From positions 2,356,001 to 2,420,000 of the forward strand of contig NZ_JAHVAO010000001.1 in assembly GCF_019264345.1 (NCBI RefSeq): a stretch of DNA of 64,000 bases, written 5' to 3'. Below, piece after piece: positions 45,007 through 59,179 of this stretch; the first letter of the stretch is position 1; each line of letters starts with the position of its first letter. Made by a program: the position numbers and the translations under genes. This stretch comes from Marinobacter arenosus (GTDB taxonomy: Bacteria > Pseudomonadota > Gammaproteobacteria > Pseudomonadales > Oleiphilaceae). A model generated the notes under the pieces. It saw only the letters and a program-made list of their open reading frames with translations. It did not search any database and was not told the origin of the DNA.

Positions 45007-45360
45007 TCAGTGGCTGATCATCCAGGGCCGCATGGAGGGGAACATTTTCTTCCCGTCGGCGGTGTAGAACAGCATCGACTTGCCAGGCTTCGGGGAACCA
45101 CAACCGCAACTGCGGCTGTGCTCCTGGTCGTGGGCCCGGCGGTCGGCGGTGGAAAACACCGGTTCGTGCCGGGATTTTTCATTCCGGTCCTGGGCCGCCC
45201 GGTTGGCCGGGTCCATGGCCGCAATGTGCGACGGCAACACGATCACCCGGGGCGACAGCACCTTGCAGGTGGGGCATTCCGCCGGCTTGGCGGCGTCGTC
45301 CATGGTGGCCAGGGTGTTGAACAGGCCGTGCTCCCGGCACTTGTAGTCATACACGGGCAT
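45007..45360 (-). CDS. fmdB: FmdB-family zinc-ribbon protein
   Basis: A 117-aa cytosolic protein with a FmdB-type zinc ribbon: MPVYDYKCREHGLF followed by AECPTCK about residues 27-34, then a Lys/Ser linker and a second Cys-rich patch (SRSCGCGSPKPGK). FmdB proteins accompany formamidase genes and were proposed as regulators; the molecular role is unproven. It starts 5 bp after fmdA and is the last gene of the operon. Confidence 0.85.
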   Translation of the reverse strand: MPVYDYKCREHGLFNTLATMDDAAKPAECPTCKVLSPRVIVLPSHIAAMDPANRAAQDRNEKSRHEPVFSTADRRAHDQEHSRSCGCGSPKPGKSMLFYTADGKKMFPSMRPWMISH

Positions 45361-45365
45361 GGCGG

Positions 45366-46598
45366 TTACTCCTTATCTTTCGACAGGGGTACGTCCATGC
45401 CGCCACTGACTTTCTTCTGGGGACCATCGGCCGACGGGTTGATGTCGAAGTCGAAGATGCCGGTGGGCAGCCAGAGCGTGGCGCAGGCGTTGGGGATGTC
45501 CACCACACCGCTGATATGGCCTTCCACCGGCGCGCAGCCGAGGATCGCGTAGGCCTGGGCCCTGGTGTAACCGAACTTGGTCATGTATTCGATGGCGTTC
45601 AGGCAGGCCTGGCGATAGGCCACGTGCACGTCGAGGTAATGCTGGCCGCCGTCTTCGTCCACCGAGATGCCTTCGAAGATCACGTAGTCGTCGTAGCGGG
45701 GCTTGATCGGGCTGGGCTTGAACACCGGGTTCTTGATGCCGTATTTCTTCACGCCGTCCTTGATCAGGTTCACCCGCAGGTGGATCCAGCCAGCCATTTC
45801 GATGGCGCCACAGAAGGTGATCTCACCGTCGCCCTGGCTGAAGTGCAGGTCGCCCACGGACAGGCCGGCGCCGTCCACGTACACCGGGAAATACACCTTG
45901 GAACCCCGGGACAGGTCCTTGATGTCGCAGTTCCCGCCGTGCTCTCGCGGCGGCACGGTGCGGGCGGCTTCCGCGCCGGCGGCCTTGGCGGCCTCACCGC
46001 GCATCTGGCCCATGTGGGCGGTCTCGCCGTTCGGCAGGGTGGCCAGCTCAGGCACCCGCTCCGGGTCGGTGGCCACCAGGCCGGCTTCCCGCTTGTTCCA
46101 GGTCTCCAGCAGTTCCTTGGAGGGCAGGCAGCCGATCAGGCCCGGGTGAATCAGGCCGGCGAATTCCACGTTCGGAATGTGGCGGGATTTGGTGAACATG
46201 CCGTTGAAGTCCCAGATGGATTTCTGGGCCTCCGGGAAGTGTTCGGTCAGGAAGCCACCGCCGTTCTGCTTGGAGAAGAACCCGTTGAAGCCCCACTGGC
46301 TCTCTTCGAAGGTGCCGATGTCGAGGATGTCCACTTCCAGCAGGTCGCCGGGCTCCGCGCCCTCAACCCCGATCGGGCCAGACAGGAAGTGCACCTGGCT
46401 GAGGTCCACATCGCGCACATCGTCGGCGCTGTCGTCGTTCTTGATCTGGCCGCCGGTCCAGTCATAGCACTCGACGATGAAGTCATCACCGGGTTTGACG
46501 GTGGCCACCAGGGGAATGTCCGGGTGCCAGCGGTTGTGGATTTTGTCGTTCTCATAGGCCGACTTGTTCAGATCAATCTTGATTATGGTTTCAGCCAT
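45366..46598 (-). CDS. fmdA: Formamidase/acetamidase FmdA
   Basis: A 410-aa cytosolic amidase of the FmdA_AmdA family (not related to AmiE): NKSAYENDKIHNRWHPDIPLVATVKPGDDF opening, LHFSQGDGEITFCGAIEMAG in the middle and CAPVEGHISGVVDIPNACATLWLP near the end. It hydrolyses formamide (perhaps acetamide) to ammonia and formate. Its promoter region holds a copy of the CTACGTCATTYGACGYATT motif. A 101-bp gap separates it from the AAA+ gene, so it may have a second promoter. Confidence 0.92.
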   Translation of the reverse strand: MAETIIKIDLNKSAYENDKIHNRWHPDIPLVATVKPGDDFIVECYDWTGGQIKNDDSADDVRDVDLSQVHFLSGPIGVEGAEPGDLLEVDILDIGTFEESQWGFNGFFSKQNGGGFLTEHFPEAQKSIWDFNGMFTKSRHIPNVEFAGLIHPGLIGCLPSKELLETWNKREAGLVATDPERVPELATLPNGETAHMGQMRGEAAKAAGAEAARTVPPREHGGNCDIKDLSRGSKVYFPVYVDGAGLSVGDLHFSQGDGEITFCGAIEMAGWIHLRVNLIKDGVKKYGIKNPVFKPSPIKPRYDDYVIFEGISVDEDGGQHYLDVHVAYRQACLNAIEYMTKFGYTRAQAYAILGCAPVEGHISGVVDIPNACATLWLPTGIFDFDINPSADGPQKKVSGGMDVPLSKDKE

Positions 46599-46695: not shown

Positions 46696-46711
46696 TACGT
46701 CATTCGACGTA
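46696..46711. promoter_or_regulatory. Perfect inverted repeat TACGTC-ATTC-GACGTA upstream of fmdA
   Basis: The arms TACGTC and GACGTA are perfect complements around ATTC. The site overlaps the end of the AAA+ gene and lies about 100 bp upstream of the fmdA ATG. It is one of only two copies of the longer motif CTACGTCATTYGACGYATT seen in the window; the other is in the urtA/sensor divergent region (53898-53913). Candidate operator of the LuxR-type regulator. Confidence 0.6.
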
Positions 46712-47743
46712 TTGGTACACGGTGACGGCCCTGCCCTTCAGGCCGGCCTCAAACCGGTGGCAGTTCGGATAGGCCAGCAGTGCCCGGGCCACGGCCGGCT
46801 CCAGGCGCTGACGGAAGGCCCGCAACAGTTCCCGGGCGCCGTAACGGGCGTCGTAGCCCCGGCACAGGTCCGCGCGCAGGTCGGGCGACACGGTGAGTTC
46901 GGCGTGCTTTTTGGCCAGACGGCGATTGAGGCCCGCCAGCTCGATGTCCAGCAGGGCTTCCAGCCAGTTGTCGGAAAGCGGGTTATAGGTGAGGATCTGG
47001 TCGATCCGATTGAGGAATTCCGGATCGAAATGTCGTCGCAACGCAGCATCGCGAATGGCCTCGCCCTTACCGGGCGATAACCCGAGCCAGCGGCGCCAGC
47101 TCTTTTGGTAATGCTGCAGATGGGCTTCGGCGTCCAGGGCGCCGGCGTTGCTGGTCATGAAAATCAGGGTGTTGCGAAAGTCGATCTCGCGGTTGCCGGA
47201 GGGGAAGACCAGGCGGCCGGTGTCCAGCACGTTGAGCAGGGTACGAACCACCTCCTTGCTGGCCTTTTCAATTTCATCGAACAGCACAATGCCGGGTTTG
47301 CTGAATGACCCCTGAACCTTGTCCAGATCGAACAGGCTGTGGCCTTCCTTGCTGCCCACATAGCCTGGTGGTGCCCCGGTGAGGGCGGCGGCGTAGTGCT
47401 CCTGGGCCAGGGTGTTCATGTCGATGCGGCACAGACCATCGCGGTTGCCGTGAATCGCCTCGGCGATAAGACGCACGGTCTCCGTCTTGCCGACACCGGT
47501 GGGCCCCAGGAACAGGTGCACTGCCAGCGGCCGGTTGTCCTCGCCGATGTCGGCCTTCACCCTCACCAGCATGGCTTCCATGGTCGCGAGGGCCTCTTCC
47601 TGGCCGACGATGTTGTCCCGCAGGCGGGCCATGACGGCCTCGGGCTCGAAGCGGAACCGGGAAACACGAACCGGGCCTGAAGCGGCCCGGTTCTTTGCAA
47701 TGGACTCCCGGTTGGCTTCCAGCCGTTCGTTGATAAACGGCAT
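46700..47743 (-). CDS. Clp/Hsp100-like AAA+ ATPase
   Basis: A 347-aa AAA+ protein. HLFLGPTGVGKTETVR is Walker A (near residue 80), GIVLFDEIEKASKEVV Walker B, IFMTSNAGALD sensor 1, FDPEFLNRIDQIL the arginine finger region and the C-terminal YGARELLRAFRQRLEPAVA the ClpB-D2-like small domain. It has no N-domain or second AAA module and no ClpP loop, so it is a single-module remodeller. It sits between amiE and fmdA in an operon for amide use. Its client is unknown; a role in amidase assembly or transport control would be reasonable. Confidence 0.86.
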   Translation of the reverse strand: MPFINERLEANRESIAKNRAASGPVRVSRFRFEPEAVMARLRDNIVGQEEALATMEAMLVRVKADIGEDNRPLAVHLFLGPTGVGKTETVRLIAEAIHGNRDGLCRIDMNTLAQEHYAAALTGAPPGYVGSKEGHSLFDLDKVQGSFSKPGIVLFDEIEKASKEVVRTLLNVLDTGRLVFPSGNREIDFRNTLIFMTSNAGALDAEAHLQHYQKSWRRWLGLSPGKGEAIRDAALRRHFDPEFLNRIDQILTYNPLSDNWLEALLDIELAGLNRRLAKKHAELTVSPDLRADLCRGYDARYGARELLRAFRQRLEPAVARALLAYPNCHRFEAGLKGRAVTVYQYVE

Positions 47744-47758: not shown

Positions 47759-48805
47759 TTAGGCCCCTGCGGATTTTTCCTTGCCGTCGAACGGCAGCTC
47801 GCCGACTGGGCACTCGGCGGTACCGACGGTCTTGCGGGTCATGGCCTCCACATTCTCCTGCGCTTTCTGGGCGTCCATCACCCAGGTGCGGTAGAACTCG
47901 AACGGGCAGTCGGCCACGCCCTTGTCGCCATCACCGGAGGCATGCACGCCGGTGTAGCCCCGGTGCAGCAGCTTGAACAGGTGGTTCTGGGACTGGTCGT
48001 TGGCGCGGGCATCGCGGATCTGGCTGACCGAGAGCTGGGCGTACTGCACGCCCATGTCTTCCTCGCCGCACTCACCCAGGGTGCGGCCGTCGAAGCCGAT
48101 GATCGCCGAGTGGCCAAAGTAGGAATAGACGCCGTCAAAGCCGGAGGCGTTGGCCACGGCCACGTAGCAGTTGTTGGCCCAGGCCATGCTCTTGGCCATC
48201 ATGATCTGCTGTTCCTTGGCCGGGTACATGTAGCCCTGGCAGCGCACGATCAGCTCCGCCCCCTTCATGGCGCAGTCGCGCCAGATTTCCGGGTAGTTGC
48301 CGTCGTCGCAGATGATCAGGCTGATCTTCATGCCCTTGGGGCCTTCGGTGACGTAGGTGGTGTCACCGGGATACCAGCCTTCGATGGGGCACCAGGGAAT
48401 GCACTTGCGGTACTTCTGGACGATCTCGCCCTCGTTGTTGATCAAAACCAGGGTGTTGTAGGGCGCCTTTTTCGGGTGCTCCTCGTGGCGCTCGCCGGTC
48501 AGGGAGAACACGCCCCAGGTGTTGGCCTCTCGACAGGCGGCGGCGAAGATGGCGGTCTCGTCGCCGGGAATGGTGGCGGCGGTTTCCATCATCTCGTCGT
48601 TGTCGTACATGATGCCCATGGTGCTGTATTCCGGGAACACCACCAGGTCCATGCCCGGCAGGCCCACCTTCATGCCCTTGATCATGTCCGCGATCCGGCG
48701 GGCGTTGGCGAGCACATCGTCCCGGGTGTGCAGCCGGGGCATCTTGTAGTTCACCACCGCCACGCCGACGGTGTCGTTACTGCTGGATATATCACCGTGT
48801 CTCAT
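47759..48805 (-). CDS. amiE: Aliphatic amidase AmiE
   Basis: A 348-aa nitrilase-superfamily amidase that hydrolyses acetamide, propionamide and similar to ammonia and acid in the cytosol. The sequence opens [21 protein letters not shown], as in Pseudomonas aeruginosa AmiE, with the catalytic triad in VFPEYS (Glu), [14 protein letters not shown] (Lys) and [11 protein letters not shown] (Cys). The ATG at 48805 has GAGGAG upstream and equals the family N-terminus. No amiC or amiR genes are seen; a different sensor (permease-kinase) is nearby. Confidence 0.95.
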
Positions 48806-48818
48806 GTTTATCTCCTCG

Positions 48819-49508
48819 TTACACCGCCAGATAGCTGGCAATCTTGTCCTGGTCCGCTTCCGCCCGGCTCTCTTCGTGCACGATGGCACCCTTCTCGATC
48901 ACCAGAATCCGGTCGGCCGCATCCATCACGAAGCTCAGCACCTGCTCCGACACCACAATGGACAACCCCCGCTCATCGCGGATGCGCCGCAGGGTCTGGG
49001 CGATGTCCTTGATGATGTTGGGCTGGATGCCTTCGGTGGGTTCGTCGAGCAGCAGCACCTTGGGCCGGGTGGCCAGCGCCCGGGCGATGGCCAGCTGTTG
49101 CTGTTGGCCGCCGGACAGGTTGCCGCCGCGACGGTTCTGCATTTCCTTGAGCACCGGGAACAGTTCGTACAGGTCCTCCGGCACCTTCTTCTCCCCCACC
49201 GCGGCCAGGCCGGTCTCGATGTTTTCCCGCACCGTCAGGGTGGGAAAGATCATCCGCCCCTGGGGCACGAAGCCGATGCCGGCGCGCACCCGCTGGAAGC
49301 TCTTCAGGCTGGAAAGATCGGTGCCGTCCAGGCTGACTTCACCTCCTTTTGTGGGCGTCATCCCCACCAGGGATTTCATCAGCGTGGTCTTGCCCATGCC
49401 GTTACGGCCCACCACGGCGACGATTTCGTTCTTTGCCACATCGAGGTTCAGGTCATCGATGATGGTGCTCTGGCCATAGGCCACCGAATGATGTTTTACG
49501 TTCAGCAT
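48819..49508 (-). CDS. urtE: Urea/amide ABC transporter ATPase UrtE
   Basis: A 229-aa ABC ATPase of the branched-chain/urea type (LivF-like): Walker [12 protein letters not shown], signature [17 protein letters not shown], Walker [14 protein letters not shown], and an H-loop replaced by VVSEQVLSF as usual in UrtE. It is 2 bp after urtD and 13 bp before amiE. It should drive uptake with UrtD. Confidence 0.92.
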
Positions 49509-49510
49509 GA

Positions 49511-50269
49511 TCAGTGCCCCAGGTAGACTTCGATGACTTTCGGGTCCGATTTCACGTGCTCGATGGACCCTTCTGAGAGAACCTTGCCCTGATGCATGAC
49601 GGTGACCCGGTCGGCGATGTCGCCGACGAACTGCATGTCATGCTCGATCACCAGCACCGTGTGGTCCTTGGTGATCACCTTGAGCAGTTCGGCGGTTTTC
49701 TTGCGCTCGGCCACCGACATGCCGGCCACCGGCTCATCCAGCATCAGCAAGTCCGGTTTCTGGATCAGCAGCATGCCGATCTCCAGCCACTGCTTCTGGC
49801 CGTGGCTGAGCATGGCCGCCGGCTGGTCCAGGGCATCGGAGAGGAAGATGGTTTCCGCCACCTCCTCCACCGCCTCGATCACCGCCGGGTCGCGCTTGAA
49901 CGCCAGCGCGCCCATCACGCTGTGGCCCCGGGGAAACGACAGCTCCAGGTTCTCGAACACGGTCAGGTCCTCGAACACCGAGGGGGTCTGGAACTTGCGC
50001 CCGACCCCGTTGTGGACGATCTGGTGCTCCTTGAGTTTGGTCAGCTCCTTGCCGGCGAACTTGATGGACCCGGCCGTGGCCTTGGTCTTGCCGCAGATCA
50101 GGTCCAGCACCGTGGTCTTGCCGGCACCGTTCGGGCCGATGATGACCCGGATTTCCTTGGGGTCGAGGTAGAACGAGAGGTCATCCACGGCCTTGAAGCC
50201 GTCGAAGGACACGGTGAGCCCCTCCACCGCCAGCAGGAAGTCATTGCTCTTGGATTTGGCTGCGTTCAT
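49511..50269 (-). CDS. urtD: Urea/amide ABC transporter ATPase UrtD
   Basis: A 252-aa ABC ATPase of the LivG-like type: Walker A GPNGAGKTTVLDLICG, signature MLSHGQKQWLEIGMLL (the SHGQ variant typical of UrtD), Walker B LLMLDEPVAGMS and IEHDMQFV with the switch His. The start codon overlaps the urtC stop by one base (TGATG), a sign of translational coupling. Confidence 0.93.
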   Translation of the reverse strand: MNAAKSKSNDFLLAVEGLTVSFDGFKAVDDLSFYLDPKEIRVIIGPNGAGKTTVLDLICGKTKATAGSIKFAGKELTKLKEHQIVHNGVGRKFQTPSVFEDLTVFENLELSFPRGHSVMGALAFKRDPAVIEAVEEVAETIFLSDALDQPAAMLSHGQKQWLEIGMLLIQKPDLLMLDEPVAGMSVAERKKTAELLKVITKDHTVLVIEHDMQFVGDIADRVTVMHQGKVLSEGSIEHVKSDPKVIEVYLGH

Positions 50270-51489
50270 CAGGATTTCTCCGGGCTGTAGTGATCAAGCA
50301 TCGGGTCGTAGTCATGCGCTTCCTTCGCCTCAACCGCCGGCTTGCGCGCCTCGGCGGTTGGCTCGGGCTCGGATACCGGCTGGGCCTCGGCCTTGGACTT
50401 ACGCTTGAACAGGCGCTCTTCCAGCGGCATCACGTAGCTCTGGTAAAGGCCGGCCAGACCGTTCGGGAACGCCAGTACCACGCCGATGAACAGGGCACCC
50501 ATGGCGAAAGGCCAGAGTTCCGGGAAGGATTCCGAGAAACCACTCTTGGCCGCGTTCACCAGAAGCGCGCCGTAGACCGCACCGAGGATCGACAACCGCC
50601 CACCGAGGGCACAGAAGATGACCATCTCGATGGAGGCGACGATGCCGATGAACGACGGCGACATGAAGCCGACGATCAGAGTGAACAGCGCGCCGCCGAT
50701 GCCGGCGAAAGCCGCGGCCAGGCAGAACACGAAGATCTTGAAGGCGGCGACGTCATAGCCGGAGAAACGCACCCGGTTTTCCTGGGCGTTCATGGCCACC
50801 AGGATGCGGCCGAGCTTGCGGTTCTGGACCAGCCGGGCCACGAACAGGCACAGGAACAGCATGCCCACGCAGATAAAGTACAGGGTGGTTTTCGCCGCAT
50901 CGCTGCGGATGTCCCAGCCCATCAGGGTCTGCAGGTCGGTAATGCCGTTCACGCCACCGGTGTAACCCTGCTGCCCGATGATCAGGATGGTCAGGATCGC
51001 GGCGATGGCCTGGGTGATGATGGCGAAGTACACGCCACCCACCCGCCGGGTGAACATGGCCAGGCCGATGATGAAGGCCAGCAGCATGGGCACTCCGATC
51101 ACCGCCAGCAGGGTGAAGGAGAAGCTGTGGAACGGTTCCCAGAACCACGGCAGTTCGGTGAGCTGGTTCCAGTCCATGAAATCCGGAATGCCGGGTGTGG
51201 ACTGGATGGCGGTGGCCTCCGGCGTGGAGGCCTCCAGCTTCAGGAACATCGCCATGCAGTAGCCGCCAAGGCCGAAGAACACGCCCTGGCCCAGGCTGAG
51301 AATGCCGGCCTTGCCCCAGCACATCACCAGGCCGATGGCCACGAAGGCGTAGGTCAGGTACTTGCCCACCATGTTCAGGCGGAAGGGGTCGAGCGCCAGC
51401 GGCAGGATGACCACCAGCAGGGCGGCCAGCGCGAGGTAATACAGCCCCTCGCGGGAGGAAAACCATTTCAATGGGGATGAACTCTTCAT
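50269..51489 (-). CDS. urtC: Urea/amide ABC transporter permease UrtC
   Basis: A 406-aa inner-membrane permease of the LivM type with about ten helices (YYLALAALLVVILPLAL, YLTYAFVAIGLVMCWGKAGILSLGQGVFFGLGGYC and so on) and the conserved block RLVQNRKLGRILVAMNAQENRVRFSGYD. The cytosolic tail is long, charged and Pro/Glu-rich. It starts 9 bp after urtB. Confidence 0.93.
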   Translation of the reverse strand: MKSSSPLKWFSSREGLYYLALAALLVVILPLALDPFRLNMVGKYLTYAFVAIGLVMCWGKAGILSLGQGVFFGLGGYCMAMFLKLEASTPEATAIQSTPGIPDFMDWNQLTELPWFWEPFHSFSFTLLAVIGVPMLLAFIIGLAMFTRRVGGVYFAIITQAIAAILTILIIGQQGYTGGVNGITDLQTLMGWDIRSDAAKTTLYFICVGMLFLCLFVARLVQNRKLGRILVAMNAQENRVRFSGYDVAAFKIFVFCLAAAFAGIGGALFTLIVGFMSPSFIGIVASIEMVIFCALGGRLSILGAVYGALLVNAAKSGFSESFPELWPFAMGALFIGVVLAFPNGLAGLYQSYVMPLEERLFKRKSKAEAQPVSEPEPTAEARKPAVEAKEAHDYDPMLDHYSPEKS

Positions 51490-51498
51490 GACAATCTC

Positions 51499-52425
51499 CT
51501 AGCGACGGACCTTGAGGGCCATGAGTCCTTCCGGACGCAGCATCAGGATGCCGACAACGACCAGCAGGGTGAGGACCTTGGCCATGGAACCACTGAGGAA
51601 GAACTCCATGGTGGACTGGGCCTGGGAGATGCCGAAGGCCGACACAATGGTGCCGATCAGGCTCTGGGCGCCGCCAAACACGACCACCAGGAAGGTGTCG
51701 ACGATGTAGGCCTGGCCGGATGACGGGCCGGTGGAGCCGATCATGGTGAACGCCGCACCGGCGATGCCGGCAATGCCACAGCCAAGGGCAAAGGTGGCGC
51801 GGTCGATGCCGGCGCTGTTGATGCCCACCGCTTCCGCCATGGGGCGGTTCTGGACCACGGCCCGCACTTTCTTGCCGTAGCCGGAGCGGTACATCAACAG
51901 GTAGACGCCGACGGCGATGGAGAGCGCGATGATCATCACGAACAGACCATTGATCGGCAGCTCCACCAGGTCGGTTACCTGGAACGCCCCCATCATCCAC
52001 TCGGGCAGTTCCACGCCCACTTCGCGGGCGCCGAAGATGGAGCGGTAGGCCTGCTGCATGATCAGGCTGAGGCCCCAGGTGGCCAGGAGCGTGTCGAGGG
52101 GCCGGTGGTAGAGTCGCCGTATCATGAGCCATTCGACGAGCGCACCCAGTGCGGCACAGATCAGGAAGGCCAGTATCATGGCGACGAAGAAGTACCCGCC
52201 GAACAGGCTGGGCAGGTAGCTCTGGAAGAAACCCGAGGTCAGGTAGGTGGTGTAGGCGCCGAGGATCATGAACTCCCCGTGGGCCATATTGATGACACCC
52301 ATCTGACCGAAGATGATGGCCAGGCCCATTGCCATCAGTACGAACACTGAAAACAGGGAGAGCCCGGCAAACCCCTGCATGGCAAATATCGACATCAATT
52401 CACTGCTGGTGTAGCCATCGAACAT
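51499..52425 (-). CDS. urtB: Urea/amide ABC transporter permease UrtB
   Basis: A 308-aa inner-membrane permease of the LivH type: VFVLMAMGLAIIFGQMGVINMAHGEFMILGAY opening, TLLATWGLSLIMQQAYRSIFGAREVGVELPEW with the family Arg-Glu block and NRPMAEAVGINSAGIDRATFALG. It pairs with UrtC. GGGGAG precedes the ATG. It is separated from urtA by an 83-bp gap with a strong hairpin, so it may be expressed at lower level than the binding protein. Confidence 0.93.
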   Translation of the reverse strand: MFDGYTSSELMSIFAMQGFAGLSLFSVFVLMAMGLAIIFGQMGVINMAHGEFMILGAYTTYLTSGFFQSYLPSLFGGYFFVAMILAFLICAALGALVEWLMIRRLYHRPLDTLLATWGLSLIMQQAYRSIFGAREVGVELPEWMMGAFQVTDLVELPINGLFVMIIALSIAVGVYLLMYRSGYGKKVRAVVQNRPMAEAVGINSAGIDRATFALGCGIAGIAGAAFTMIGSTGPSSGQAYIVDTFLVVVFGGAQSLIGTIVSAFGISQAQSTMEFFLSGSMAKVLTLLVVVGILMLRPEGLMALKVRR

Positions 52426-52508: not shown

Positions 52509-53777
52509 TTACTGGTAGCCTTCCGGGAACGGGTCCGGCTCCATCAGCTCGTCGGTCTCGTAAACCACCTGGTACTGGCCGTCGGTCTGGGCACGGCCGA
52601 TGCGGGTCTTGGACCAGAGGTGGTGGTTCTCGTGAATGCGCACGTAGCCTTCCGGTGCCTTCTTGAACTCGATGCCAGCGAAGACTTCGCGGATCTTGTC
52701 GATGTCGAAGGAGCCGGCCTTCTCGACCGCCGCTTTCCACAACCAGGGGCCGAGGTAGGCCGCCTGGGTGACGTCACCAATGACCATGTCGTCGCCGTAG
52801 GCTTCCTTGAACGCCTTGACGAATTCCTGGTTGTTGGGGTTGTCGAGGCTCTGGAAGTACTTCATGGAGGCGTAGATACCTTCCACGTTCTCACCACCGA
52901 TGCCGCGGATTTCGTCCTCGGTCACCGAGATGGTCAGCAGCAGGGGATCTTCCTCGGTGAAATCCACGCCGGCGGCCTTCATCTGCTTGTAGAAGGCGAC
53001 GTTGGAGCCACCCACAACCGAGGCGAAGATCACGTCCGGCTTCTTCAGCTTGATCTTGTTGATCACCGAGTTGAACTGGGTGTGGCCCAATGGGTAGTAC
53101 TCCTCACCCACGACCTTGAGGCCCAGCTTGTCGATGTGCTTGCGGGCGATCTTGTTGGAGGTGCGCGGCCAGATGTAGTCCGAACCGAGCAGGTAGAAGG
53201 TCTTGGCCCCCTTCTCCTTCACGGCCCAGTCGATACCCGCCAGGATCTGCTGGGTGGCTTCCTGGCCGGTGTAAATCACGTTCGGGGACTGCTCGAGGCC
53301 TTCGTAAAAGGTGGGGTAGTAGAGCATGCCGTTGTACTGCTCGATCACCGGCAGGATGGCCTTCCGGGACGCGGAGGTCCAGGCGCCGAAAATGGCGGCG
53401 ACGTCGTCCTGGCGCAGCAGTTTACGGGATTTCTCGGCAAACGTCGGCCAGTCACTGGCGCCGTCTTCCTGGACGTACTTGATCTCACGACCCAGCACGC
53501 CGCCGGAGGCGTTGATCTGTTCGATCGCCAGTTTTTCCGCCTGCACCGAGCCGATCTCACTGATTGCCATCGTGCCGGTGATGGAGTGCAGGATGCCGAC
53601 CGTGACGGTGTCATCGGTGACCGCCAACCCCGTGGTGTTGACCTCGTCGGTGCTCGGCACGGCCGCTTGCGCGGAGGTGGCCAGCATGACCGACGCCGCC
53701 AGTGTCATCAGGCTCTTTCGAAACCCGAGCCCCTTGCCTATCGACCGCCCACCGGCGGTTATCTCTGTCGTACCCAT
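52509..53777 (-). CDS. urtA: Urea/short-chain amide binding protein UrtA (FmdD-like)
   Basis: A 422-aa periplasmic binding protein of type 1 fold. The signal peptide ends ATSAQA-AVPS (about residue 38). The block VGILHSITGTMAISEIGSVQAEKLAIEQINASGGVLGREI is typical of UrtA and of the FmdD amide-binding proteins. IFGAWTSASRKAILPVIEQYNGMLYYPTFYEGLE lines the ligand site. It could bind urea, formamide or acetamide; the nearby amidases favour amides. GAGGAA precedes the ATG. First gene of the operon, divergent from the permease-kinase. Confidence 0.92.
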   Translation of the reverse strand: MGTTEITAGGRSIGKGLGFRKSLMTLAASVMLATSAQAAVPSTDEVNTTGLAVTDDTVTVGILHSITGTMAISEIGSVQAEKLAIEQINASGGVLGREIKYVQEDGASDWPTFAEKSRKLLRQDDVAAIFGAWTSASRKAILPVIEQYNGMLYYPTFYEGLEQSPNVIYTGQEATQQILAGIDWAVKEKGAKTFYLLGSDYIWPRTSNKIARKHIDKLGLKVVGEEYYPLGHTQFNSVINKIKLKKPDVIFASVVGGSNVAFYKQMKAAGVDFTEEDPLLLTISVTEDEIRGIGGENVEGIYASMKYFQSLDNPNNQEFVKAFKEAYGDDMVIGDVTQAAYLGPWLWKAAVEKAGSFDIDKIREVFAGIEFKKAPEGYVRIHENHHLWSKTRIGRAQTDGQYQVVYETDELMEPDPFPEGYQ

Positions 53778-53897: not shown

Positions 53898-53913
53898 TAC
53901 GTCATTTGACGCA
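53898..53913. promoter_or_regulatory. Inverted repeat TACGTC-ATTT-GACGCA in the urtA/sensor divergent region
   Basis: Near-palindrome with one mismatch, in the 310-bp divergent gap. It sits 120 bp upstream of urtA and 175 bp upstream of the sensor gene. Together with the fmdA-upstream copy it matches CTACGTCATTYGACGYATT over 19 bases. The rest of the 310-bp gap shows no gene. Candidate operator. Confidence 0.6.
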
Positions 53914-54087
53914 TTCCGGTCCCCGGCCGAACCGGCTAAAACGCAGGTACACGAATTAAATGTCACCGCATCTCATCGCGCACCGGAGAATGGCACGGAA
54001 CTTGTTGAGGCTTTCAAATCCGGTGCGCGGAACCCCAAAACCGCCCCAAAACCGGGCATTTTCCCAGGTTACACAGGCAAGGCAGCG

Positions 54088-57000
54088 ATGGCCGCACGAC
54101 AGAACATTTTCCGGGTTCGGCGCAGTTACAATCAGTGGGTCGCCAACCAGACGCTGGAAGACTACGCCCTGAGGTTTACCGCCAAGAGCGCCCGGCGCTG
54201 GTCGGCTGCCCGGGTCAGCAACACCGCCCTGGGTGCAATCTCGTTCCTGGCCATGGAAGCCATCGGCGGCTCCATCACCCTGCACTACGGCTTCGATAAT
54301 GCGGTTGCCGCCATCCTGGTGGTCAGCCTGGTGATCTTCCTGACCGCCATCCCGATCAGTTACTACGCCGCCCGCTACGGCGTGGACATTGACCTGCTGA
54401 CCCGGGGCGCGGGCTTCGGCTACATCGGCTCCACCATCACCTCGCTGATCTACGCCTCGTTCACCTTCATCTTCTTTGCCATCGAGGCGGCCATCATGGC
54501 CATGGCCCTGGAGATGCTGTTCGGCATCCCCCTGGTGCTGGGCTACCTGATCTGCGCGGTGGCGATCATCCCGCTGGTGATTCACGGCATCACCACCATC
54601 AGCCGGTTCCAGGTCTGGACCCAGCCGGTGTGGATCCTGCTGCAGCTGGCGCCGTTCGTGTTCATCATCTACGCCGATGCCTCGTCCATCAGCGACTGGA
54701 CAAAATTCGAGGGCCTGGGCGAGGCCGCCGGCCAGGGCCTGAACGTGGTGATGTTTGGCGCGGCCGCCGCCGTGGTGTTCTCGCTGATTGCCCAGATTGG
54801 CGAGCAGGTGGATTTCCTGCGGTTCATTCCGGAACCCCGGAACCGGGAGGAGAAACGCCGGTGGTGGGTGGCGGTGATGTCCGGCGGGCCGGGCTGGATC
54901 GTGATTGGCATGCTCAAGATCCTGGCCGGCTCCTTCCTGGCGGTACTGGCCCTGAACCAGGGCATCTCGGCCACGGAGGCGGCGGATCCGACCCAGATGT
55001 ACGTGATCGCCTTCAACTACATCACCCACTCGCCGGAGATCTCCCTGGCCATGGCGGGTATCTTTGTGATTCTGTGCCAGCTCAAGATCAACGTCACCAA
55101 CGCCTACGCCGGCTCCATTGCCTGGTCCAACTTCTTCTCCCGGCTCACCCACAGCCACCCGGGCCGGGTGGTCTGGCTGTTCTTCAACGTCGCGATCGCG
55201 CTGCTGGTGATGGAACTGGGGGTCTACCGGGCGCTGGAGGAAACCCTCGGCTTCTACGGCATCATCGCCATCGCCTGGGTCGGGGCGCTGGTGGCGGACC
55301 TGGTGATCAACAAGCCGCTGGGGCTCAGCCCCAAACACATTGAGTTCAAGCGCGCGCACCTGTACGACATCAACCCGGTGGGCGTCGGTGCCATGATCAC
55401 CGCCTCGGTGGTGGGCATTACCTGCCACACCGGCGTCCTCGGGGCCTATGCGGAAGCCCTGTCTCACTTCATTGCCCTGGCCGTGGCACTGGTGACGGCG
55501 CCGTTGATCGCCTGGAAGACCGGCGGCCGGTTTTACACCGCCCGTCCGTTTACGCCCCTCGCCACGGACCATCAACTGGTTCAGTGCACCATCTGCGAGC
55601 ACAGATTCGAGCCGGAGGACGTGACCAGCTGTCCGGCTTACGACGGCACCATCTGTTCCCTGTGTTGCTCCCTGGACGCCCGCTGCGGGGACGTCTGCAA
55701 ACCCGGCGCCGGTTACCAGGAACAGTTGCAGCAGTTTCTCGGCAAGCTGATGCCCGGTGCGCTCCTGAGCCGACTCCACTCCCGCCTCGGTCACTTCCTG
55801 AGCCTGCTGTTTCTGATCAATGGCCTGTCCGGCCTGCTGCTGTCGCTGATTTACTTCAAGACGCCGGTGGCCTCGGCACCCGAAGCCCTGCTGCTGTCCG
55901 TCACCCTCTGGAAGGTATTTTTCATCCTGGTGATTGTTACCGGGGTGATCTGCTGGCTGTTTGTGCTGGCCCACGAAAGCCGCGTGGTGGCGGAGGAAGA
56001 GTCCGGCCGTCAGACCCGGCTGCTGATGGAGGAAATTGTCGCTCACGAGCGCACCGATCAGGCCCTGCAGCAGGCGAAAGAGCAGGCAGAGGCCGCAAAT
56101 GGCGCGAAAAGCCGCTATCTGACCGGTATCAGTCACGAACTCCGGTCACCGCTGAACGCCATTCTCGGCTATGCCCAGTTGTTGGAGAACGACGACTCGG
56201 TCCCGCCCCACCGCAAGGAAGCCCTGGGGGTGATCCGCCGCAGCGGCGAATACCTGGCCGATCTGATCGAGGGGCTGCTGGACATCTCCAAGATCGAGGC
56301 CGGACGGCTGGACCTGCACCGGGACCAGGTCCGCATCGAGTTGCTGATGGAACAGCTGGTCACCATGTTCCAGCTGCAGGCCGAGGAGAAGGGCCTGGCG
56401 TTCGATTACCACTGCCCCTTCCCGTTGCCGGAAATGGTGACCACCGACGAGAAACGCCTGCGCCAGATCCTGATCAACCTGCTCTCAAACGCCATCAAGT
56501 ACACCGACAAGGGCGGGGTCTCCCTGACGCTGCGCTACCGCAGCCAGGTGGCGGAGTTCACCATCCGGGACACCGGTGAAGGCATCGCCCAGGAGAACAT
56601 CGAACGGATCTTCCGGCCGTTCGAGCGTATCCGTACCCCGGGCCAGAGCCGCAGTGGCACCGGACTTGGCCTGACCATTACCCGGCTGCTTACCGAGATC
56701 ATGGGCGGCGATATCTCTGTGGCCAGTGAACCCGGCCAGGGCAGCACCTTCAAGGTGAGCCTGATGCTCTCCAGCCTGCACAGCTCCAGCCCCCGATCGA
56801 TCAGCGCCCCGGCTCGCCGGATCTACGGCTATCACGGCACCCGGCGCAAGGTCCTGCTGGTGGACGACGACATCTCCCACCGCCAGGTCATCCGCGCCAT
56901 GCTGTCGCCACTGGGTTTCGAGATTATCGACATCGGCAATGCCCTCCGGGTCGAGGAAACGGTGGCCACCGAACGCCCGGACCTGGTGCTGCTGGACGTG

Positions 57001-57457
57001 TCCATGCCGGGGCGTACCGGCTGGGAGGTTCTCCAGCAGCTGCGGGCGGACAAACACGCCATGCCGGTGGTGATGGTGTCCGCCGATGCCAACGAGGGCC
57101 ACCATGCCGCGGACTCACCGCGCCTGCACGACGGTTACATCATCAAGCCCGTGCGACTGAACCTGTTGCTGGACACCATCGCCGGGGTGCTGGACCTGGA
57201 GTGGCGGTTCGAGAAGAGTGCCGAACCGCTCGCCGCCCTCCCGGTGTCGGACACCGGCGACCTGCCGCTGCCCGCCCTGGCCTACCGACAGGAACTGGCG
57301 GACCTGGCCCGTATCGGGCACCGCAAGGGACTGCTGGAAGCCCTGCACGGACTCAGGCACCGCGGCGAGGCGGACCAACGCTTCACCGACGAACTCTCCC
57401 AGCTCACCAACGATTTTCAGTTCGAAAAAATTCTGGAATTACTTGAGGTAGCCGAAC

Positions 57458-57471
<14 letters not shown>
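54088..57471 (+). CDS. NCS1 permease - Cys-rich linker - histidine kinase - receiver fusion
   Basis: A 1127-aa inner-membrane sensor. Residues about 10-490 are a multi-helix NCS1-type permease (nucleobase/cytosine/allantoin family; RVSNTALGAISFLAMEAIGGSITLHYG, LTRGAGFGYIGSTI). Residues 499-540 form a Cys-rich segment: CTICEH, CPAYDGTICSLCCS and CGDVCKP, about nine Cys, fit to bind zinc or an Fe-S centre. Two more helices follow (about 570-630). HisKA has H683 in GISHELRSPLNAILG; the HATPase carries DTGEGI and GTGLGL; a receiver has D970 in LLDVSMPGRTGW. A further C-terminal helical segment ends the protein. ATG at 54088 has AAGG nearby. It overlaps the next regulator gene by 14 bases. Predicted to sense amide/urea or nitrogen status. 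Confidence 0.9.
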
Positions 57472-58363
<892 letters not shown>

Positions 58364-58438
58364 AGGCGTTCGGGCACTTTTCAGGGCGTCGGCTGTCACC
58401 CGGGTAATCCCACGCGATTGCAGACCGAGGAGAGCATT

Positions 58439-59179
58439 GTGCGCCTGACGCCACTGAAAACATTGATCCCCGCACTGGTCCTGGCCACCGGCCCCTGGCT
58501 GAGCTCCACCGCGCAGGCGGAAGCCATTGAACTACCGGTTTTTTCCCAGCTTGAATCTCTGGGGCAAGGCTCCGGCTGGGAACCGCTGGAATTTCCCAAG
58601 ATCGACGAGCACTCCCGCTATGAGTTGGTGACCGAGGACGGCACCCAGGTGGTTCGGGCCGACACCAATGGCGGCGCCTCCGGCATGATCACCCGGCTGG
58701 ATGTGCAGCCCGGGGACTCGTTGATCCTGCGCTGGCGCTGGAAAGTCTCGAACGTGTTTGAGCAGGGCGATGCCCGGGAAAAGTCCGGCGACGACTACCC
58801 GGCGCGGATCTACGTGGCGTTCAAGTTCCAGCCGGAAAAGGCCGGTTTCTTCGAACGCGCCAAGCGCAAGACCGTCGAGGTGTTGTTTGGTGAAAGCCTG
58901 CCCGGCAATGCCCTCAACTACATCTGGGCCAACACCCTGCCCGAGGGCGAGACGGTCCCCAATCCCTACACCGAGAAAACCATGATGGTGGCGGTGAATT
59001 CCGGCAATGAACGGGCCGGCGAATGGGTGACCGTGGAGCGGGATATCGTGGCGGATTACCGCCGGGCGTTCGGGGAGGCACCACCGCCGCTGGTCGGCAT
59101 CGCCATCATGTCTGACTCCGACAACACCGGGGAAACGGCCACCGCCTGGTACGGCGACATCAGCCTGTCGACCGAATGA
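58439..59179 (+). CDS. DUF3047 exported protein
   Basis: A 246-aa protein with a signal peptide ending TAQA-EAIE. The DUF3047 body is recognised by LILRWRWKVSNVFEQGDAREKSGDDYPARIYVAFKF in the middle and the closing GIAIMSDSDNTGETATAWYGDISL. The fold resembles a beta-sandwich. The start is a GTG at 58439 with GAGGAG 7 nt before it; a TTG at 58418 is less likely. Unknown function. Confidence 0.82.
   Translation: MRLTPLKTLIPALVLATGPWLSSTAQAEAIELPVFSQLESLGQGSGWEPLEFPKIDEHSRYELVTEDGTQVVRADTNGGASGMITRLDVQPGDSLILRWRWKVSNVFEQGDAREKSGDDYPARIYVAFKFQPEKAGFFERAKRKTVEVLFGESLPGNALNYIWANTLPEGETVPNPYTEKTMMVAVNSGNERAGEWVTVERDIVADYRRAFGEAPPPLVGIAIMSDSDNTGETATAWYGDISLSTE

Follow-up and report, generated by a model that had tools for sequence, protein, structure and literature searches.

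A histidine kinase fused to an NCS1-type permease beside amide operons in Marinobacter arenosus: a candidate receptor for short-chain amides and urea

The window analysed here is a stretch of 64,000 nucleotides from Marinobacter arenosus (contig NZ_JAHVAO010000001.1, positions 2,356,001 to 2,420,000), and the system in question is a permease-kinase of 1127 residues (54088..57471, plus strand) together with the amide genes on its flank. Analysis of open reading frames (ORFs), domain search and an AF2 model confirmed the one-chain architecture described in a preceding sequence-only reading, i.e. an NCS1-fold permease domain (residues 1-493, 54088..55566), an eight-cysteine segment (residues 500-538, 55585..55701), two helices that lead into the kinase in the model (residues 566-591 and 597-661, 55783..56070), HisKA (residues 673-739, 56104..56304), HATPase_c (residues 786-894, 56443..56769) and a receiver (residues 922-1031, 56851..57180). 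HisKA and Response_reg, the two signalling domains for which that reading proposed a profile search, were both found, as was HATPase_c. The phospho-acceptor His683 is kept in 52 of 52 aligned proteins and Asp970 of the receiver in 50 of 52, the two gaps being L130 and L131, which have no receiver. The overlapping LuxR-type regulator noticed before was likewise recovered: a LuxR/NarL-type response regulator (57458..58363, plus strand; Response_reg plus GerE), the ORF of which overlaps the permease-kinase stop codon by 14 bases. Such a regulator adjoins the kinase in most homologous loci, the nearest of which in named genomes is L040 (99% over residues 1-620).

The amide genes lie on the minus strand and comprise an amide-type urtA substrate-binding protein gene (52509..53777), urtB (51499..52425), urtC (50269..51489), urtD (49511..50269), urtE (48819..49508), the aliphatic amidase gene amiE (47759..48805), the formamidase gene fmdA (45366..46598) and a gene for an FmdB-family zinc ribbon protein (45007..45360). 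A ClpA/B-type single-domain AAA ATPase (46700..47743, minus strand) is common within such clusters and stands between amiE and fmdA in many of them. On the other side, a DUF3047 protein (58418-59179) follows the regulator; it is found 3' of the regulator in many Marinobacter and 5' of the urt cluster in some, was not found in others, and likely stands outside the system.

The NCS1 identity proposed for the permease part is upheld by the fold and by a bridging homologue, but not by the Pfam profile that had been named for it. Transp_cyt_pur (PF02133) gave no match to the window protein at E values up to 10, nor to 49 family members at E up to 1. Homologue L196, at 43% to the window permease, does pass PF02133 (31.8 versus a cut-off of 23.5), and NCBIfam PRK11017 matched the permease domain at E 9e-5, below its cut-off. 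In comparison with the PDB, the AF2 model displays a LeuT-type fold closest to CodB and Mhp1. NCS1 structures ranked first and chains of SSS fold lower (SiaT 22-23, CHT1 up to 25.3); the LeuT fold is common to both, so that the ranking alone does not exclude SSS. Taken with the bridging homologue, the modelled fold supports assignment to NCS1. With a complete transporter fold and a complete HisKA-HATPase in one chain, the protein is a transporter-fused histidine kinase.

The cysteine segment follows the signature C-x2-C-x11-C-x7-C-x2-CC-x5-C-x3-C. The earlier reading had noted C-x2-C-style pairs and about nine Cys here; the signature has eight cysteines (500, 503, 515, 523, 526, 527, 533 and 537), all of which are conserved throughout the 52 aligned proteins. 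Leaving out five distant permeases (L134, L135, L136, L150 and L215), all 160 fusion rows have the full signature, as do 7 of the 14 short rows; the other seven short rows are six urease-linked relatives and one sequence cut at the stretch end. Because the signature also closes seven free-standing permeases, the segment is not merely a linker. The model shows a hairpin plus a helix, for which Foldseek returned RING, ZZ and Slac2-a-type domains among its best matches (E 0.4 or worse). Judged from the modelled structure, conservation and these weak fold matches, the segment is probably a binuclear treble-clef zinc site. In G070, a genome of the window's genus without the sensor, only the helix-kinase linker is matched, over 42 residues (L178, C10:1044843-1044968), perhaps as a sensor remnant.

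The sequence-only reading had asked whether this architecture always neighbours urt, ami or fmd genes. Operon types were labelled by identity thresholds of our own within 9.5 kb of the permease-kinase, with urtABCDE-fmdA-amiE as the amide type and a second kind of urtABCDE and/or urease as the urea type; UreC, UreG and the second-kind UrtA were confirmed by NCBIfam. Mostly, though not invariably, homologues stand beside such genes: an amide or urea operon was found in 142 of the 160 fusion rows examined. Of the 80 top-ranking loci from named genomes, 77 are of amide type, and the exceptions are two contig ends (L031 and L063) and L052, with an amidase only. The other 80 fusion rows were fetched from whole-genome searches and represent not every match but a set partly chosen for interest; 42 are of amide type, 23 of urea type and 15 of neither. 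Within the last group, L132, L147, L183, L184 and L185 have less than 2 kb on at least one side, L228 has an urt operon of a third kind next to it (44-49%), L192, L194 and L195 carry outputs other than the hybrid kinase, and L216 is the second copy in G535, where two permease-kinases lie about 9.5 kb apart and the first (L182) is beside amide-type genes. L204-L206 form one group from another class; urt, fmd and ure neighbours were not found there at the set thresholds, and NCBIfam gave no match at E 1e-10 for two of the neighbours.

The association with one operon type or the other has changed repeatedly. At least seven amide/urea changes are required on a quick tree of 87 permease domains, whose well-supported branches force between 5 (amide group) and 7 (urea group). 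A database search returned at least 8000 matches at E 0.001 or better; those named among the best 120 are kinases, ATP-binding proteins or response regulators, and one is purine-cytosine permease-like.

Alignment of the urtA-kinase intergenic regions revealed one conserved palindrome, in the window TACGTCATTTGACGCA (53898..53913), 121 bp 5' of the urtA start and 175 bp 5' of the kinase gene. When all palindromes of the form 5+2+5 were counted in the 450 bp 5' of 87 rows, CGTCA-N2-TGACG occurred in 24 rows and the runner-up in 4 (four loci have two rows, and the single L219 site was counted for both of its rows); elsewhere in the same loci there are 3 copies. The longer form TACGTCA-N2-TGACGTA was scanned over 83 loci (1,584,068 bases), of which 88,732 bases belong to promoters of the sensor, urtA, fmdA, amiE and free permease genes. 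Up to one mismatch, 41 of 42 sites fall in promoter bases, and up to two mismatches 58 of 61; 200 shuffled half-sites gave on average 0.24 of 3.55 in promoters, the best 8 of 10. The motif was derived from kinase-upstream sites in these loci, and the sites at fmdA, amiE and urea-type urtA genes were unused in deriving it. Sites with at most two mismatches are present in 29 of 31 gammaproteobacterial amide-type loci.

At genome scale, TACGTCA-N2-TGACGYA with up to one mismatch occurs at two sites only in the 4.1-Mb genome, namely the intergenic palindrome and a second one, TACGTCATTCGACGTA (46696..46711), about 98 bp 5' of fmdA. A set of 25 sensor-bearing genomes, picked by hand, gave 27 places, of which 26 are at the cluster and one, in G012, is outside it; 23 of these genomes have one site or more. 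Twenty-one of the cluster places are 91-404 bp from the permease match of the sensor. The others lie 105 bp before fmdA (G458), 74 bp before amiE (G246) and 143 bp before a urea-type urtA (G158), with those in G174 and G186 assigned to fmdA by distance only, as in the window and L037. Twenty-five genomes without the sensor have 2 places, and the reversed pattern gave 6 and 9 in the two genome sets. The palindrome is supported as a link between sensor, urtA, fmdA and amiE in gammaproteobacterial amide loci, which lends computational support to the earlier proposal that the protein controls the neighbouring urt and fmd genes. By its position and its likeness to CrbR, the LuxR-type protein is the natural predicted binder. 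A sigma54-like -24/-12 element, TGGCAC-N5-TTG (53991..54004, plus strand; consensus match only), also precedes the kinase gene in most aligned Marinobacter, with two more matches elsewhere in the window, and suggests an added nitrogen control.

Residues of the NCS1 site, placed by alignment with CodB in transmembrane helices (TM) 1, 3 and 6, are nearly fixed (T126, L233, Q236, E239, Q240 and D242), as are K333, I334 and N335 in TM8. The motif QxKIN..N.Y occurs in 174 of 174 rows, five distant rows being left out (L134-L136 have Arg for Lys). The register of TM8 relative to CodB differs between the manual and the MAFFT alignment. Variation is found at position 235 (CodB Ser206, at the TM6 breakpoint), with Ala in 36 of the 49 sensors of amide type against 7 P, 6 A and 4 T among the 19 of urea type (17 in all), and at F129 (aligned with CodB Trp108), replaced by Leu in 8 of 19 urea-type rows. 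Together with Glu57 in TM1 (see below), positions 235 and 129 are, from the alignments, candidate determinants of specificity or gating.

On this computational basis it is likely that the protein is an NCS1-based amide/urea receptor kinase that drives the neighbouring import and hydrolysis regulon. We infer that a short-chain amide from outside the cell, such as formamide or acetamide (urea in the sister proteins), would bind in the permease pocket, and that the resulting change in transporter conformation would be passed through the putative metal-binding cysteine domain and the two helices to the HisKA-HATPase core. Phosphate would then reach the co-encoded LuxR-type regulator, perhaps by way of the built-in receiver. 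In the proposed scheme, the regulator would bind TACGTCA-N2-TGACGYA palindromes before urtABCDE-amiE, fmdAB and the sensor gene itself, so that the proteins for amide import and hydrolysis would be produced in the presence of the amide; the effect would be activation rather than repression.

Several observations weigh against this interpretation. No amide or urea neighbour was found at the set thresholds in 18 of the 160 fusion rows, and a contig end close by does not account for L190, L204-L206 and L210. The palindrome (up to two mismatches) is rarer outside gammaproteobacterial amide loci: among gammaproteobacterial loci of urea type 4 of 16 have it, and in the other class or classes 4 of 18 of amide type and 4 of 6 of urea type. 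Motif or regulator would therefore have drifted there, and given this class split the palindrome is primarily a feature of the window's own lineage. At two mismatches the genome has 22 sites and the reversed control 22 as well; at three mismatches the window shows no excess (6 versus 5.2 expected), and the 12-base core has one further genome copy, near no recognised amide gene. Sigma54 or nitrogen control could explain some of the regulation. By analogy, L-histidine is reported to have no significant effect on the activities of CbrA (PMC7096432).

The unit of permease, cysteine segment and two helices is joined to a hybrid kinase in most rows, and other outputs occur: a plain kinase in L192 and, beside fmdA, in L130 and L131, PAS-PAS-kinase-receiver in L195, and PAS-GGDEF-EAL in L194 (7352-11020), possibly an amide-controlled cyclic di-GMP enzyme. 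Six genomes (L189, 10767-12446, and L217-L221) have a free permease with the full cysteine signature that stands divergently from the permease-kinase and has fmdA and amiE after it; no urt match at 33% or above was found within these stretches. In L234 and L235, of the genus group of L217-L219, urtABCDE occupies the place of the free permease. The L189 protein is identical to a "purine-cytosine permease family protein" of Acidihalobacter prosperus, and close relatives of the free permease, among the best 120 rows, include proteins of that name from Acidithiobacillus and Acidocella. In six genomes (L196, 8589-10211, and L223-L227), two of them shared with the former six, an NCS1 permease relative without the full signature adjoins ureG in a urease operon, followed by a NicO nickel carrier in 5 of 6; it is a candidate urea carrier. 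Genomes G940 and G942 carry both the free cysteine-tailed permease and the urease-linked relative, and L222 has another free permease before an amidase gene.

The strongest clue that amides and urea are handled by this fold comes from these free permeases, in the place of Urt and in urease operons. With somewhat less assurance than for the receptor kinase itself, yet still on the favourable side, we propose that the eight-Cys-tailed NCS1 clade is an unrecognised family of short-chain amide/urea carriers that was converted, as a single portable module, into receptors for these several outputs. The free form could replace the five-gene Urt ABC transporter, and the receptor form would have undergone several amide/urea switches, residue 235 being a candidate determinant of its specificity.

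The most serious alternative, a tentative one that we regard as appreciably less probable than a pure receptor, is a true transceptor: the permease domain would mainly transport its ligand or gauge its flux, and the kinase would report turnover. Consistent with this, the sensors and the 7 tabulated free permeases have Q236, E239, Q240, D242, K333 and N335 in common, and CbrA is reported as both histidine transporter and sensor kinase (PMC7096432). Glu57 points the other way, as it is fixed in the sensors (49 of 49 amide-type, 19 of 19 urea-type) but four of the 7 free permeases have F there and three have Q, which hints at altered gating; Ks-Amt5, moreover, is described as binding ammonium without translocating it (PMC5764959). 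That general nitrogen or redox state is sensed through the cysteine segment, with the permease as an anchor only, is unlikely. The presence of the eight-Cys signature in every fusion and the sigma54-like element 5' of the kinase gene fit such a sensor, but the neighbour type switches along the permease tree, the signature closes the seven kinase-less permeases, and pocket-region residues are as fixed as the cysteines. Very improbably, the permease-kinase regulates other things and is a mere passenger of a mobile amide/urea island, as its patchy distribution might imply (a match in an open frame above 800 residues in 38 of the 299 genomes sampled from the phylum, counted by eye), since the palindrome recurs at fmdA, amiE and urtA promoters of gammaproteobacterial loci, is rare elsewhere in whole genomes, and the linkage spans more than one class and both operon types.

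Viewed as an amide/urea receptor kinase, the protein resembles the SLC5-STAC histidine kinases CbrA, CrbS and RpuS, in which a complete LeuT-fold transporter is likewise combined with a histidine kinase and the response regulator acts on uptake or utilisation genes. It differs in that its fold is nearest NCS1 rather than SLC5, in its predicted ligands and in its palindrome; in the model, the eight-Cys domain and two long helices appear to stand where the STAC four-helix bundle does. CodB and Mhp1 share the NCS1 fold, with alignable site residues in TM1, TM3 and TM6, and differ in being without a kinase; cytosine and hydantoin carry amide or ureide groups. CodB has adjacent sodium ligands, Thr278-Thr279 (PMC9379551), whereas residues 328-341 of the permease-kinase contain no adjacent Ser/Thr pair and hold the invariant Lys333. 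CrbR is of LuxR type and needs an imperfect inverted repeat (PMC5715377), and SLC5-STAC is also fused to diguanylate cyclase (PMC7096432), which the PAS-GGDEF-EAL protein of L194 parallels. In Ks-Amt5, too, the fold of a nitrogen-nutrient transporter was recruited as a kinase sensor, but the fold is Amt and the ligand ammonium, and no Cys domain is mentioned in the parts consulted (PMC5764959). Regarding the operons, blr0968-0973 of Bradyrhizobium japonicum is an amide-linked urtABCDE cluster beside formamidase and amidase genes (PMC3098086, 2010); its authors doubted urea as its cargo, and no sensor is described in the part of that paper at hand. For urtABCDE operon III of Ectopseudomonas guguanensis G3, an adjacent two-component system with a LuxR-type regulator and, in a figure legend, a hybrid kinase is reported (PMC13296017, 2026), the available text giving no NCS1 permease part, motif or function and using "NCS1" 0 times. 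Our literature search turned up no paper that describes a sensor kinase of NCS1 type, the Cys domain of such a kinase or its motif. Transporter-kinases of SLC5 and Amt folds, with few studied members, are known (PMC13022988, PMC7096432, PMC5764959, PMC9100948), and the present protein would add to them a third transporter family, one with many members, for which a class of ligands is predicted and a regulon of two sites and a DNA motif are proposed. The repeated amide-urea switch would provide a natural series for specificity and for signalling from transporter fold to kinase. Known carrier types include Urt, UT, UreI and DUR3, and the NCS1 clade is proposed to supply carriers of formamide/acetamide and urea outside all four.
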